A stretch of 64,000 bases of DNA from Photobacterium profundum SS9 (GTDB taxonomy: Bacteria > Pseudomonadota > Gammaproteobacteria > Enterobacterales > Vibrionaceae): assembly GCF_000196255.1 (NCBI RefSeq), contig NC_006370.1, positions 3,609,411 through 3,673,410 on the forward strand. The letters are read 5' to 3'. A program made the position numbers and the translations under genes. Shown here piece after piece: positions 8,886-54,798 of the stretch. The notes below the pieces were generated by a model that made no database searches, had not been told where the DNA came from, and saw only the letters and a program-made list of their open reading frames with translations. Within the stretch, counting starts at the first letter, position 1, and each line of letters opens with the position of its first letter.

Positions 8886-10022
8886 ATGAAAATTGTTATT
8901 GCTCCTGATTCTTATAAAGAAAGCCTGACGGCAATGGAAGTGGCTACCGCGATTGAAGCCGGCTTTCGCCAAGTTATGCCAAATGCTGAATACCAAAAAT
9001 TGCCAATGGCTGATGGCGGTGAAGGAACCGTTCAGTCATTAGTTGACGCGACAGACGGCACTATTATCAAACACACGGTTACCGGCCCTCTTGGCGAGCA
9101 AGTAAAAGGGTTTTATGGCCTAATGGGTGGCGGTAAAACCGCAATCATTGAAATGGCCGCAGCATCTGGTTTGCACTTAGTGCCAGCAGAAAAACGTAAC
9201 CCGTTACTGACCACCAGTTTTGGTACTGGCGAACTGATTAAAGCCGTTCTTGACCAAGGTGTTGAGCATATCATTGTGGGTATTGGTGGTAGCGCAACCA
9301 ACGATGGTGGTCTTGGCATGGCGCAAGCGTTAGGCATCAAAATGCTTAATGCTCAAGGTAACGAGCTAGGATACGGCGGTGGTGAATTAGCACAACTTGC
9401 GCGTATTGATATGTCTGGTATTGATCCTCGCCTTGCAAAGATCAAGCTTGAAGTCGCCTGTGATGTGAATAACCCATTATGTGGATTAAAAGGTGCATCG
9501 CATATCTTTGGCCCACAGAAAGGGGCGACTCCTGCAATTGTTGAACAGCTAGATGCTAACCTTGCGCACTACGCTGAGATAATCAATGCGCAGCTAGGCC
9601 AAGATGTAAAAGATATTCCCGGTGCAGGTGCCGCTGGTGGTTTAGGTGCGGCATTACTCGGACTGTTTAACGCAAGTTTACGCCCAGGTATTGATATCGT
9701 CATGGATGCCGTCAATTTTACCGATATCGTCTCTGATGCAGATTTAGTCATTACAGGTGAAGGGCGTATTGATAGCCAAACCGTACATGGAAAAACCCCG
9801 ATTGGCGTTGCACGTGCAGCCAAAAAGTTCCATATACCAGTCATTGGTATCGCAGGGTGTTTATCAAACGACTGTGATGTGGTTTACGAGCACGGTATTG
9901 ATGCCGTATTCAGTGTGGTACCACGTGCAATGGCATTATCTGATGCTTTCGAGGAAGCTGCATTCAATGTTCAGATGACGGCACGTAATGTTGCGGCCAT
10001 GCTAACGATAGGGAAGCGATAG
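8886..10022 (+). CDS. glxK: Glycerate 2-kinase (GarK/GlxK family)
   Basis: This 378-aa cytosolic kinase phosphorylates glycerate with ATP, feeding lower glycolysis as 2-phosphoglycerate. Family I glycerate kinase signatures are present: KIVIAPDSYKESLTA at the start, PMADGGEGT near 42-50, GIGGSATNDGGLGMAQALG near 133-151, and VITGEGRIDSQTVHGKTPIG near 288-307. Length is standard (E. coli GarK and GlxK are about 381 aa). It is the third gene of the cdaR-permease-kinase cassette. A heptad repeat array begins at the base after its TAG stop. The garK and glxK names cannot be distinguished by sequence alone. Confidence 0.94.
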   Translation: MKIVIAPDSYKESLTAMEVATAIEAGFRQVMPNAEYQKLPMADGGEGTVQSLVDATDGTIIKHTVTGPLGEQVKGFYGLMGGGKTAIIEMAAASGLHLVPAEKRNPLLTTSFGTGELIKAVLDQGVEHIIVGIGGSATNDGGLGMAQALGIKMLNAQGNELGYGGGELAQLARIDMSGIDPRLAKIKLEVACDVNNPLCGLKGASHIFGPQKGATPAIVEQLDANLAHYAEIINAQLGQDVKDIPGAGAAGGLGAALLGLFNASLRPGIDIVMDAVNFTDIVSDADLVITGEGRIDSQTVHGKTPIGVARAAKKFHIPVIGIAGCLSNDCDVVYEHGIDAVFSVVPRAMALSDAFEEAAFNVQMTARNVAAMLTIGKR

Positions 10023-10064
10023 CGAGAAACAGACTCCTAGAACCGAGTTTCGAGTCCCTAGAAA
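10023..10064. repeat. Heptad repeat array 1 (after glxK)
   Basis: Six consecutive 7-bp units fit one phase, including CGAGAAA, CTAGAAC, CGAGTTT, CGAGTCC and CTAGAAA. The array begins at the base following the glxK stop and runs into the glxK terminator hairpin. It belongs to the same family as the arrays near 10137, 25448, 26489, 28890, 32885 and 33343. Confidence 0.7.
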
Positions 10065-10105
10065 AAAGGGTAAGCCCCAAAATGGCTTACCCTTTCTCTT
10101 TTTAT
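10065..10105 (+). terminator. Terminator of the glycerate cassette
   Basis: Perfect 12-bp arms AAAGGGTAAGCC and GGCTTACCCTTT (10065-10076 and 10084-10095) with a 7-base loop are followed by a T-rich tract on the plus strand. Confidence 0.9.
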
Positions 10106-10136
10106 CAAGATCCAAGTTCTCCTAAGGCTAACTTAC

Positions 10137-10164
10137 CTAGCCTCTAGAATCGCGTCCCTCAATA
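10137..10164. repeat. Heptad repeat array 2 (between glxK and acnB)
   Basis: Four phased 7-bp units CTAGCCT, CTAGAAT, CGCGTCC and CTCAATA occur in the convergent gap between glxK and acnB. Weaker units (CAAGATC, CAAGTTC) occur at 10107-10120. It looks like a second array on the far side of the glxK terminator, or the other arm of array 1. Confidence 0.55.
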
Positions 10165-19106: not shown

Positions 19107-20999
19107 TTACAGTACTAAGCGACGAATATCAGATAGGCAACCGTTTAGGTAAGTAATGAAACGTGCACCTTCAGCACCATCGACCACACGGTGATCGTAA
19201 GATAGTGATAGAGGAAGCATTAGGCGAGGTTCAAAATCCTTGCCATTCCATACAGGTTTCATTTCAGACTTAGATACACCTAAGATACCCACTTCTGGTG
19301 CGTTCACGATTGGTGTGAATGCAGTACCACCTAAGCCACCAAGGCTAGAGATAGTGAAACAGCCGCCTTGCATATCAGATGCAGTTAGCTTGCCAGAACG
19401 TGCTTTCTTAGAAATAGCCATTAGCTCTTCAGATAGCTCGTAGATACCTTTCTTGTTCACATCTTTAAAGACAGGAACAACTAGGCCGTTAGGTGTATCA
19501 ACCGCGATACCCACGTTCACGTACTTCTTCAGAATAAGGCTTGCACCGTCATCTGAAAGAGAAGAGTTGAAAGATGGGAATGCTTCAAGCGCTTTCGCAA
19601 CAGCTTTCATGATGAACACAAGTGGTGTGATCTTCATGCCAGTATCTTTCTTCGCTTCAATCGCGTTCTGCTCTTTACGGAATGCTTCCAGAGCCGTGAT
19701 GTCTGCGTTGTCCCACTGTGTAACATGCGGGATCATTACCCAGTTACGGTGCAGGTTAGCGCCAGAAATCTTCTTGATGCGAGATAGAGGCTTAGTTTCA
19801 ATCTCACCAAACTTGCTGAAATCAATTTTCGGCCAAGGTAGAAGACCCAGTGCAGAACCGTCGCCACCTTTAGCAGATGCAGCTGCACCAGATTCAAGAC
19901 GCTTAAGCGCATCTTTCACGTAGTTCTGTACGTCTTCTTTCTGGATACGGCTCTTACGACCAGTACCTTTAACTTTAGAAAGGTTAACGCCAAATTCACG
20001 AGCAAGACGACGAACAACTGGAGATGCATGCGCATATTCGTTGTTTTCTTGGAAATCGCCAGCTGGAGCTGCTGCTTGTGCAGGCTTCGCTGCAGGAGCA
20101 GATGCTGCTACTGGAGCTGCCGCTTGAGCAACAGGTGCAGGTGCGGAGCCAGCTACTTCAAAGACCATGATCAAAGAGCCTGTAGACACTTTATCACCAG
20201 CAACGATTTTGATTTCTTTAACAGTACCAGCAAACGGTGCAGGCACTTCCATTGAAGCCTTGTCACCTTCAACAGTAATAAGAGATTGCTCTTCTTCTAC
20301 TGTATCGCCAACAGCAACCATGATTTCAGTAACTTCTACTTCATCACCGCCGATATCAGGAACGTTTACTTCTTTAGCAGCAGATGCTACTGGTGCCGCA
20401 GCAACAGGCGCCGCCGCTTGAGCAACAGGTGCTGCAGGTGCAACTGATGCGCCAGAACCTGCTACTTCAAAGATCATTACTAGCGAACCAGTTGATACTT
20501 TATCGCCAGCTGCAATTTTGATTTCTTTTAGTACACCAGCAAACGGTGCAGGTACTTCCATTGATGCTTTGTCGCCTTCAACAGTAAGAAGAGATTGCTC
20601 TTCTTCGATGCTGTCGCCGATAGCAACCATGATTTCAGTCACTTCTACTTCGTCGCCGCCGATATCTGGAACATGTACTTCTTTTAGCTCAGCCGCCGCA
20701 GGCGCTGCAGCAACAGGTGCCGCCGCTTCAACTGCTGGCGCAGCTGCTGCGCCTTCTGCTTCACTTTTTTCTTCAACGAACAGCATAATTAAAGAACCAG
20801 TAGAAACCGTATCGCCTTCAGCGATTTTAATTTCTTTAACGATACCCGCTTGAGAAGCTGGTACTTCCATAGAGGCTTTGTCACCTTCTACAGTGATCAG
20901 AGATTGCTCTTCTTCAACCTTGTCGCCAACGCTAACAAGAATCTCAGTTACTTCAACCTCGTCTGCACCAATGTCAGGTACATTAATTTCGATTGCCAT
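19107..20999 (-). CDS. aceF: Pyruvate dehydrogenase E2, dihydrolipoyl acetyltransferase with three lipoyl domains
   Basis: This 630-aa core of the PDH complex moves the acetyl group from E1 to CoA. Three lipoyl domains carry their lysine in the same [10 protein letters not shown] context at residues 41, 144 and 247, exactly 103 residues apart, separated by Ala/Pro-rich linkers. A peripheral-subunit-binding domain ([20 protein letters not shown]) follows, then the catalytic domain with SYDHRVVDG near the end. The ATG at 20999 ([11 protein letters not shown]) is chosen from homology; the longer frame overlaps the end of aceE. The gene starts 13 bp after aceE. Confidence 0.97.
20142..20999 (-). 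repeat. Three tandem lipoyl-domain coding repeats in aceF
   Basis: Three copies of a 309-bp unit encode lipoyl domain plus linker, at about 20760-20999, 20451-20690 and 20142-20381. The second and third copies are the most alike ([13 protein letters not shown] is shared). The exact 103-codon spacing points to unequal recombination or gene conversion keeping them uniform. Confidence 0.8.
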
Positions 21000-25447: not shown

Positions 25448-25534
25448 CGAGTATGAGTATTGAGTATTGAGGGGCGAGTGTCGAGTGTCGAGGCCTTCTA
25501 GCACCTCGACACTCGCTTCTAGGAACTCGCATCT
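25448..25534. repeat. Heptad repeat array 3 (between ampD and nadC), the longest
   Basis: Twelve consecutive 7-bp units in a single phase fill 25448-25531. The left arm uses GAGNNNN units (GAGTATT twice, GAGGGGC, GAGTGTC twice); the right arm uses the complementary pattern (CCTCGAC, ACTCGCT, TCTAGGA, ACTCGCA). CGAGTGTCGAGG and CCTCGACACTCG form a perfect 12-bp inverted pair across the centre, so either strand of RNA would fold into a long hairpin. Confidence 0.8.
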
Positions 25535-25537
25535 TAA

Positions 25538-26488
<951 letters not shown>

Positions 26489-26551
26489 CGGTTTAGAGAA
26501 TAGAGTTGAGAGGGGCGAGTTGAGAGAGGCTCGCTTCTCGCCCCTAGATTG
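26489..26551. repeat. Heptad repeat array 4 (after nadC)
   Basis: About nine 7-bp units in one phase start at the base after the nadC TAG stop, including GAGAATA, GAGTTGA (twice), GAGGGGC, GAGAGGC, TCGCTTC and TCGCCCC. GGGGCGAG and CTCGCCCC form a perfect 8-bp inverted pair, so it can fold as a hairpin and may double as the nadC transcript end. Confidence 0.75.
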
Positions 26552-26789
26552 GATTACCTCGCCAGCTCATTTTTGAATACTTTCTATAACTGATACTTAG
26601 AACACTACCCTCGATCTCCCTTCTAAATTTAAATTCGCCTCTAATATCATATGCAACGAATGTAACCGCCATTGAATTAATTCAAACTGCGCCGCGTAAC
26701 CTTTTCATTATGATTCAGCCACTTGATGTCTACTCGTATTCTGAACCCACTTAAATTTAATGCTTACGGGCAATATAAGGGAAAGAATA
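26489..26789 (+). other. nadC-pilA intergenic region
   Basis: This 301-bp stretch has no supportable gene. Its first 60 bases are heptad array 4. A perfect 14-bp palindrome TTGAATTAATTCAA lies at 26672-26685. The pilA promoter must lie between there and 26780, but I could not identify convincing -35/-10 or sigma-54 elements. Confidence 0.6.
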
Positions 26790-28889: not shown

Positions 28890-28931
28890 AGCGTTGCGAG
28901 TTACGAATCACGAGATACGAGTTGCGGCAAT
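28890..28931. repeat. Heptad repeat array 5 (between pilB and pilC)
   Basis: Five or six 7-bp units in phase begin 2 bp after the pilB stop: CGAGTTA, CGAATCA, CGAGATA, CGAGTTG, then CGGCAAT. This is a one-armed array with no inverted partner. It sits inside an operon, so it is transcribed between pilB and pilC. Confidence 0.7.
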
Positions 28932-32884: not shown

Positions 32885-32919
32885 CGAGAAGCGAGTTCCT
32901 AGAGACTAGGATCTCGCGA
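32885..32919. repeat. Heptad repeat array 6 (overlaps the 3' end of mutT)
   Basis: Five 7-bp units in phase, CGAGAAG, CGAGTTC, CTAGAGA, CTAGGAT and CTCGCGA, form an inverted pair GCGAGTTCCTAG / CTAGGATCTCGC with one mismatch around AGA. The array lies 9 bp past the yacG stop, and its right half (from 32899) codes for the last residues of mutT. Confidence 0.75.
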
Positions 32920-33318
32920 CTTCAGCGAAGCCAGCTTTGCCAAAACCGCGTCATTCGCTTCAGGAAAACGGTAGTTAGCTAAATCGCACAGATTAACCCA
33001 CTCACTAGGTTGCCCTTCTTTCCCGTACGCTTCACCGCTAAACGCTTTCACCAAAAAGAAATCAAACTTTAAGGCTTTATCTGGATAGTTATGATCCAAT
33101 GCCATGAAATGTTCGATCTCGGTAACGCGAATACCGACTTCTTCAAATAATTCACGTACCACCGCCTGCTCTGCGGTTTCATTGACTTCGACTTTGCCAC
33201 CCGCGAATTCCCAAAACCCACCTTGATGCGCCTTATCAGCACGACGAGTAATAAAAACCTGATCCCCTTGAGGGTTTAGAATAATCCCAGCAGAAATCCA
33301 AACTGTCTTCTTTTCCAA
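32899..33318 (-). CDS. mutT: 8-oxo-dGTP diphosphatase MutT
   Basis: This 139-aa Nudix hydrolase clears oxidised 8-oxo-dGTP and so prevents A:T to C:G mutations. The Nudix box is complete: GGKVEVNETAEQAVVRELFE followed by EVGI. The body ends AVLAKLASL and is followed by a short tail KSRDPSL encoded by heptad array 6; E. coli MutT stops at 129 aa shortly after the same point. It is downstream of secA in the conserved secA-mutT order, with array 7 and the secA terminator between. Confidence 0.94.
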   Translation of the reverse strand: MEKKTVWISAGIILNPQGDQVFITRRADKAHQGGFWEFAGGKVEVNETAEQAVVRELFEEVGIRVTEIEHFMALDHNYPDKALKFDFFLVKAFSGEAYGKEGQPSEWVNLCDLANYRFPEANDAVLAKLASLKSRDPSL

Positions 33319-33342: not shown

Positions 33343-33412
33343 GAGTATCGAGGTACGAAAAATGTCTGATTCCTCGGAACTCGCTTCTCGCTTCTCGCTT
33401 CTCGAGTTGGGG
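33343..33412. repeat. Heptad repeat array 7 (between secA and mutT)
   Basis: Ten 7-bp units hold one phase: GAGTATC and GAGGTAC on the left, then TCCTCGG, AACTCGC, TTCTCGC twice, TTCTCGA on the right. The CTCG tetramers at 33373, 33380, 33387, 33394 and 33401 are exactly 7 bp apart. The array separates the secA terminator from mutT. Confidence 0.8.

Positions 33413-54414: not shown

Positions 54415-54798
<384 letters not shown>

Follow-up and report, generated by a model that had tools for sequence, protein, structure and literature searches.

What are the short phased repeats that occupy several intergenic gaps of Photobacterium profundum SS9, and why does their direction turn in the middle? 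The question was raised by a window of 64,000 nucleotides on the contig of 4,085,304 bases in a genome (G000) of 6,403,280 bases and 3 contigs. A sequence-only reading of this window had described seven intergenic arrays of 7-bp units, in which a core of CTAG, CTCG or CGAG is followed by three variable bases. Phased runs of at least 3 such units were detected 6 times in the window versus 0.035 times on average per dinucleotide shuffle (200 shuffles), and runs of at least 4 units were detected 4 times versus 0.0 in the same shuffles. The reading had named similar runs in shuffled DNA as evidence against it, and the shuffles did not give them. At control steps of 5, 6, 8, 9, 10, 11, 12 and 13, no run of 3 units was found in the window except for one at step 9. 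In 714 kb of the congener G029, a total of 79 phased runs was found versus 0.4 by chance.

An array was defined as at least four cores, with up to two defective units tolerated between cores. Five of the seven arrays, each claimed to hold 4-12 units, reached four cores (those at 10023, 25498, 26516, 32885 and 33373), while the one at 10137 has 2 and the one at 28890 has 3. Array 1 (10023..10061; cores at 10023, 10037, 10044, 10051 and 10058, one defective unit at 10030) begins directly after the stop codon of a gene ending at 10022 and forms the left side of an intrinsic terminator. A terminator-like hairpin with a T tail (10065..10095, plus strand) is located between it and array 2 (10137..10147), which consists of two exact CTAG units only, with CGCG at the next step. 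Array 3 sits in a divergent gap between two genes that we take to be ampD and nadC. Its left arm (25448..25492) carries CGAG at 25448, 25475, 25482 and 25489 and TGAG at 25454, 25461 and 25468, and its right arm (25498..25529) reads CTAG, CTCG, CTCG, CTAG and CTCG. Array 4 (26516..26561; CGAG at 26516, CTCG at 26530, 26537 and 26558, CTAG at 26544) is located 3' of the stop codon of a gene ending at 26488. Array 5 (28897..28921; CGAG at 28897, 28911 and 28918, CGAA at 28904) is under the threshold, as is array 2. Array 6 (32885..32916) runs CGAG, CGAG, CTAG, CTAG and CTCG in unbroken phase and contains the stop codon of the mutT ORF (32899-33318, minus strand). Array 7 has a single CGAG on the left side (33349..33352) and a right arm (33373..33404) of five in-phase CTCG units, including three identical copies of CTCGCTT. 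Inverted arms, as claimed for arrays 3, 4, 6 and 7, are present at all four, but the claim that phase is kept without slips did not survive: in array 3, the TGAG at 25454 comes only 6 bases after the CGAG at 25448 and the right arm is offset by 2 from the register of the left (CGAG at 25489, CTAG at 25498), and in array 7 the left CGAG is out of phase, 24 bases from the first CTCG at 33373.

Searched against Rfam at gathering score, the window gave no match at the arrays; its sole match was bacterial RNase P RNA class A (54415-54797, minus strand). Another repeat in the window, at 20152-20930, is a 309-bp unit in 2.5 tandem copies of 76% identity, which perhaps, as a guess, encodes repeated lipoyl domains of an acyltransferase.

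Counterparts with the near-constant core and the step of 7 were found elsewhere in the genome and also among its relatives. Four successive CTMG units gave 35 matches in G000 versus 2 for the backward pattern, with overlapping matches counted singly and CTAG runs matching on both strands. Such arrays were detected in 37 of 51 congeners, with 2 to 437 matches each and the most in G029 (437); the backward control gave 0 or 1 in most congeners, and was equal to or above the signal in G024, G032, G010 and G033. With a wider set of cores, 14 array sites were identified in G000, 4 of them in the window. All 14 are located on the 4.09 Mb contig (the large chromosome) and none on the other two contigs, C1 and C3 (P 0.0019 if placed by length). 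Most of these sites fall between 3.06 and 3.88 Mb. In a core-free scan for any 7-bp repetition in stretches of G000 and G029, 40 of 42 arrays carried, as we read them, one of the three cores, the two exceptions being arrays of TAGAGAG and AAAAGTT units; four further stretches, 3 from G016 and 1 from G001, entered the core-free scan and no other analysis. Six period-8 arrays with CCACAG-, CCGCAG- or CTATGG-like cores and otherwise variable units were found in 400 kb of G025 (L322 9638-9700; L324 5226-5308 and 12893-13141; L328 7800-8010; L329 14039-14060 and 14172-14212), together with 3 of period 7, indicating that core and period vary by lineage.

At the family level, the two-sided pattern (CGAG to the left, CTCG to the right) was detected in 18 of 296 genomes, 7 of the genus of the window and 11 of one other genus, versus 7 of 296 for its reverse. 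The 11 genomes of the other genus have one match place each. A near-identical 25-bp match, CGAGCAACTCGCAACGAGYTACTCG, is common to 8 of the 11, for instance at L387 (G642) and L389 (G648), and it looks like one conserved locus rather than an array family. Among 369 genomes of the class, 8 besides G000 have a single match to the two-sided pattern, which in 7 of them comes from CGCG units, and 9 match the backward control. Heptamer arrays of CTAGNNN or CTCGNNN type were also observed in other families of the order, at L027 (G083), L029 (G068) and L030 (G078). The array counts leave out 400 kb of G036, in which parts of the sequence read N, and the genus and family pattern counts include the G036 genome. 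The heptamer repeat family is real, grows by whole units and is abundant in a few Photobacterium genomes; since most of the G029 stretches and three to four of those of G000 were picked because they hold matches, the densities of arrays given here are not genome-wide.

For the analysis of unit structure, 71 arrays with at least four cores were collected: 453 kb of G000 yielded 11 of them, and 714 kb of G029 the other 60. Neighbouring units have identical spacers in 113 of 353 pairs versus 4.6% expected, indicating that the spacer is copied together with the core, and the proposed copying mechanism with a 7-nt step is supported by this identity. The unit is not largely fixed within a genome: its only invariant bases are the core C and G, and 44 different spacers were counted in the arrays of G000 and G029. 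The 41-step array at L098 12205-12488 (C2 of G000, about 3.10 Mb) contains higher-order repeats of several heptamers, copied as blocks.

Comparison of orthologous gaps between relatives, as had been suggested, revealed differences of whole units. In the mutT-secA gap, G015 has two CTAGCTT units (14 bp) more than G028, and G000 is 7 bp longer than G009 between common anchor words; G029, whose mutT is 79% identical to that of G000 and lies on a contig of 234,028 bases, carries a long array there that is likewise two-sided. Among MutT proteins with an organism name, those nearest to the one encoded in the window come from Photobacterium, with 80% identity for P. sagamiensis and P. lipolyticum. 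The ampD-nadC gap holds a large array in G000 and one or two units in G028, G009 and G015. On the ampD side of this gap, G041 and G050 (L261, L262) and G027 (L263) carry long runs of other 7-bp units (ACCAAGG, CCAGTAC), located between the apparent ampD promoter and the ampD start codon. In the yacG-mutT gap, one array is common to G000 and G009; in G028 and G015 its place is taken by different DNA, which contains an inverted repeat (in G028, GGCAGGT..ACCTGCC) and no clear T tract. A mobile element family inserting between genes would account for the many dispersed copies and for this varying presence among close relatives, but with no fixed ends seen and with change in place, unit by unit, we regard it as highly improbable.

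The direction of the arrays was then compared with that of the genes. Among the 36 arrays with both CGAG and CTCG, 33 have CGAG on the left and CTCG on the right, and 3 have the reverse order; the other 35 of the 71 hold at most one of the two cores. The CGAG-left polarity was 16 to 1 between codirectional genes and 14 to 2 between convergent genes. This agreement indicates that polarity is a property of the array rather than of the genes, and gene direction as its source is ruled out by the codirectional gaps. Genus-wide, on one strand of 52 genomes and with overlaps included, the forward layout gave 38 matches in 7 genomes versus 7 matches in 3 genomes for the reverse. In G029 the register is kept through the change of side: of the CGAG-to-CTCG pairs within 88 bp, 346 are in phase versus 52-104 in each other phase, while the CTCG-to-CGAG pairs gave 89 in phase versus 41 to 91. 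In G000 the corresponding CGAG-to-CTCG counts are 42 in phase versus 28-41, and register across the change is not clear. Since CTAG is one transversion away from either CGAG or CTCG, an in-phase change of side needs only point changes.

The two halves also differ in the spacers, and the claim that three positions vary freely does not hold. On the CTCG side of the arrays in G000 and G029, the share of G is 10-13% at position 5, 4-5% at position 6 and 1% at position 7, and on the CGAG side it is C that is rare. The spacers of the 29 strictly two-sided arrays contain 21 C and 63 G in the left half, and 83 C and 17 G in the right half. Broken down by setting, C richness of the right half was seen throughout, and arrays in convergent and codirectional gaps have in addition a G-rich left half; the left G richness is missing in the few divergent (G 1, C 4) and in-ORF (G 2, C 4) arrays. 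General composition was rejected as the source of this asymmetry: in array-less gaps of G000 and G029, a left-right strand switch was looked for and was absent. Array-less convergent gaps of G025 lean weakly the same way (G/C 1.27 left, 1.01 right). The idea that one arm arose as an inverted copy of the other was also rejected, as 0 of 49 mirrored spacers are complementary (0.3 to 1.8 by chance). Vsr repair was examined as a cause and rejected; Vsr is present in 8 of 52 genomes, both array-rich (G016, G007, G027) and array-free (G043, G035), and in neither G000 nor G029.

As for the genomic place, 67 of the 71 collected arrays lie in gaps between genes according to a crude ORF caller, which placed array 7 in a convergent gap even though mutT and secA are codirectional, and assigned wrong neighbours to array 6. 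The sequence-only reading had proposed to tabulate the position relative to stop codons: a stop codon lies no more than 30 nt away for 45 of the 67 gap arrays, and a start codon for 7 of 67. Convergent gaps hold 32 of the 67 arrays and make up 130 of 617 gaps (P 6e-6), and divergent gaps hold 5 of 67 and make up 137 of 617 (P 0.004), these P values being somewhat too small because arrays of one gap were counted singly.

In convergent gaps of 40-400 bp, an intrinsic terminator was predicted in 10 of 25 gaps with an array versus 60 of 90 without (P 0.0207), and three further terminator settings gave P 0.0215, 0.068 and 0.0042 for the same comparison. In G000 alone there is no deficit, with terminators in 3 of 3 convergent gaps with arrays and 25 of 33 without. 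A hairpin with a T tract is not a property of the arrays, since none was found in 15 of the 25 array-bearing convergent gaps under the first setting; in some gaps, such as 10023-10147 of the window and L099, array arms flank a true terminator. Origin of the arrays from intrinsic terminators was considered and rejected. The 3' arms of terminators contained CTCG and CGAG 2 and 2 times in G000 (99 terminators), 4 and 6 times in G029 (156), and 5 and 0 times in G025 (90); G is at least as common there as C, and the array cores are not enriched. Because terminators of G000 and G029 lack a preference for CTCG in their 3' arms and the array-less gaps of both genomes lack the strand switch, the arrays are probably not remodelled terminators.

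Our tentative choice, held at well under even odds, is that the arrays are a dispersed heptamer satellite driven by slippage, the direction of which is perhaps kept by a putative role at transcript ends. Replication slippage at a 7-nt step would supply new units, and point changes from CTAG to CGAG or CTCG would be kept by selection, with the result that RNA arriving from either direction would meet a G-poor, C-containing stretch past the middle. The most likely use would be a two-way transcript-end element for termination or insulation, perhaps Rho-dependent, by which arrays would partly stand in for intrinsic terminators. A two-way loading site for Rho would need a strand that turns G-poor past the middle in both directions, to which the array halves may correspond in part. 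The excess over shuffles, the polarity, the register in G029, the spacer asymmetry, the change by whole units, the proximity to stop codons, the convergent-gap excess and the terminator deficit all lend this explanation some support, which we regard as tentative.

Other results stand against it. The terminator deficit is a weak argument for a transcript-end role, being based on small samples, dependent on setting (P 0.004 to 0.07) and absent in G000 alone. Use by Rho is disfavoured by the step of 7, by the G in each unit and by arms able to pair: according to the available part of PMC9160355, YC dimers in such sites stand 9-13 nt apart, so only every second unit would fit, and even in the G-poor right half each core holds a G. 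Against the explanation as a whole are also the arrays that flank a real terminator, the unclear register in G000, and the left asymmetry missing in the few divergent and in-ORF arrays.

Nearly as likely as the transcript-end reading is that the arrays are neutral heptamer repeats, produced by 7-nt slippage with a bias to the C..G core and tolerated away from promoters, with a polarity inherited from a few two-sided ancestors. Heptamers are described as over-represented among repeats of many bacteria, and a step fitted to the polymerase footprint has been proposed as the cause (parts of PMC4692102 and PMC4679880). The matches listed also include six-unit CTMG arrays in many unrelated bacteria, lineages differ in core and period as in the case of the period-8 arrays of G025, and the location behind stop codons with scarcity in divergent gaps would fit mere tolerance. 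However, plain slippage gives neither a direction that turns at the array middle in codirectional gaps nor a base bias that corresponds between the two arms when their spacers otherwise differ, and the difference of spacers from array to array argues against recent common descent.

A stronger version of the transcript-end reading is a punctuation system of some Photobacterium lineages, in which putative phase-locked, outward-facing arrays would end transcripts from both sides, would replace intrinsic terminators gap by gap, and would have their strength tuned by 7-nt units. In this full form we consider it rather doubtful.

By analogy, the arrays might be candidate DNA-binding sites for a protein whose dimers each cover 7 bp on direct and inverted units, in the manner of the ribbon-helix-helix protein Omega on its WATCACW heptads. 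According to the available part of PMC9499535, Omega dimers occupy 7-bp repeats that adjoin one another in either orientation, full activity requires 4 or more of these, and the parS heptads of plasmid pSM19035 resemble the present arrays in being contiguous 7-bp units in both orientations. The parS heptads differ in their WATCACW unit, their known binding protein and their six plasmid sites over promoters (PMC9499535, same part). A symmetrical assembly would be well served by two sides locked in phase. On the other side, a range of 0 to 437 matches between congeners would be odd for sites of a common regulator, and cores and spacers are very loose; we regard this proposal as improbable.

RNA hairpins at transcript 3' ends, built of 4-bp stems and 3-by-3 internal loops and protecting the RNA or binding a protein, are less probable again. 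The sequence-only reading had pointed out that the arms could fold, and in 29 arrays the actual two-sided order folded better as RNA than a shuffled core order (mean -20.3 vs -18.3 kcal/mol; better in 22 of 29) and slightly better than arrays with shuffled spacers (-20.3 vs -19.5 kcal/mol; 19 of 29). Left and right unit numbers are weakly correlated (Spearman 0.38, n=29, P 0.039). With the polarity swapped, however, the arrays fold slightly better (-20.9 kcal/mol), the actual arrays being better in only 6 of 29. The side taken by CGAG is thus not set by pairing, and folding was rejected as the cause of arm direction. The lack of complementary mirrored spacers also counts against hairpins. Pairing may favour two-sidedness as such.

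How do the arrays compare with known repeats? REP and BIME elements of enterobacteria are, like the arrays, extragenic, most frequent at gene 3' ends and palindromic, and they are tied to transcript ends, as the arrays may be, but they are fixed palindromes of about 20-40 bp with no 7-bp register. The STRR of filamentous cyanobacteria are short tandem heptamers dispersed between genes, as here, but of fixed sequence, and we know of no two-sided layout among them. In the open-licence literature, no paper was found on a unit of CTAG, CTCG or CGAG plus NNN in Vibrionaceae. The claim that no named family fits holds for the exact unit and is too broad for the kind, since dispersed heptamer repeats of other bacteria are described in parts of PMC4692102, which also names the STRR, and PMC4679880. 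The present arrays belong to this kind in having 7-bp tandem units above chance, many intergenic loci and whole-unit changes in copy number.

The repeats GGGNATC of Xanthomonas and GGGGA(C/T)T of Nostoc, as far as the available text of PMC4692102 describes them, share with the arrays a period of 7 and a mostly intergenic location. They have four constant positions plus one more, with the rest variable, in 2 to 26 units, and, as here, they differ in length between related species and form some inverted pairs. The Photobacterium units, CTAG, CTCG or CGAG plus NNN, do not read GGGNATC or GGGGAYT. The Xanthomonas and Nostoc repeats are G-rich and tied to G-quadruplexes, and their inverted pairs appear in that text as single examples (PMC4692102); in contrast, the Photobacterium unit has a C..G core with two inner bases tied to the side, and polarity turns at the middle in most arrays with both kinds of core. 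The TAACTGA heptamers of Beggiatoaceae and others likewise have a period of 7 and a dispersed, intergenic distribution, one genome containing 169 sets, but in the available part of PMC4679880 all seven positions are fixed and the repeats are often directly upstream of start codons, unlike the arrays near stop codons observed here. In period and instability the Photobacterium arrays are thus like the heptamers of Xanthomonas, Nostoc and Beggiatoaceae, and they stand apart in the bare C..G core, the turn of polarity and the matching spacer asymmetry.

Both the earlier observation and its interpretation hold only in part, and what has emerged differs from the usual picture of heptamer repeats as slippage noise: here a tandem repeat turns its direction at its own middle, whatever the orientation of the genes. 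The arrays look like a fast-evolving mark at gene ends with a putative function. If transcript ends are involved, the arrays would represent a terminator that evolves like a microsatellite. They would also offer a possible answer to an observation made in the same species as the genome of the window, where 975 of 2128 transcript ends mapped by RNA-seq (46%) have no predicted intrinsic terminator, according to the available part of PMC3505737.
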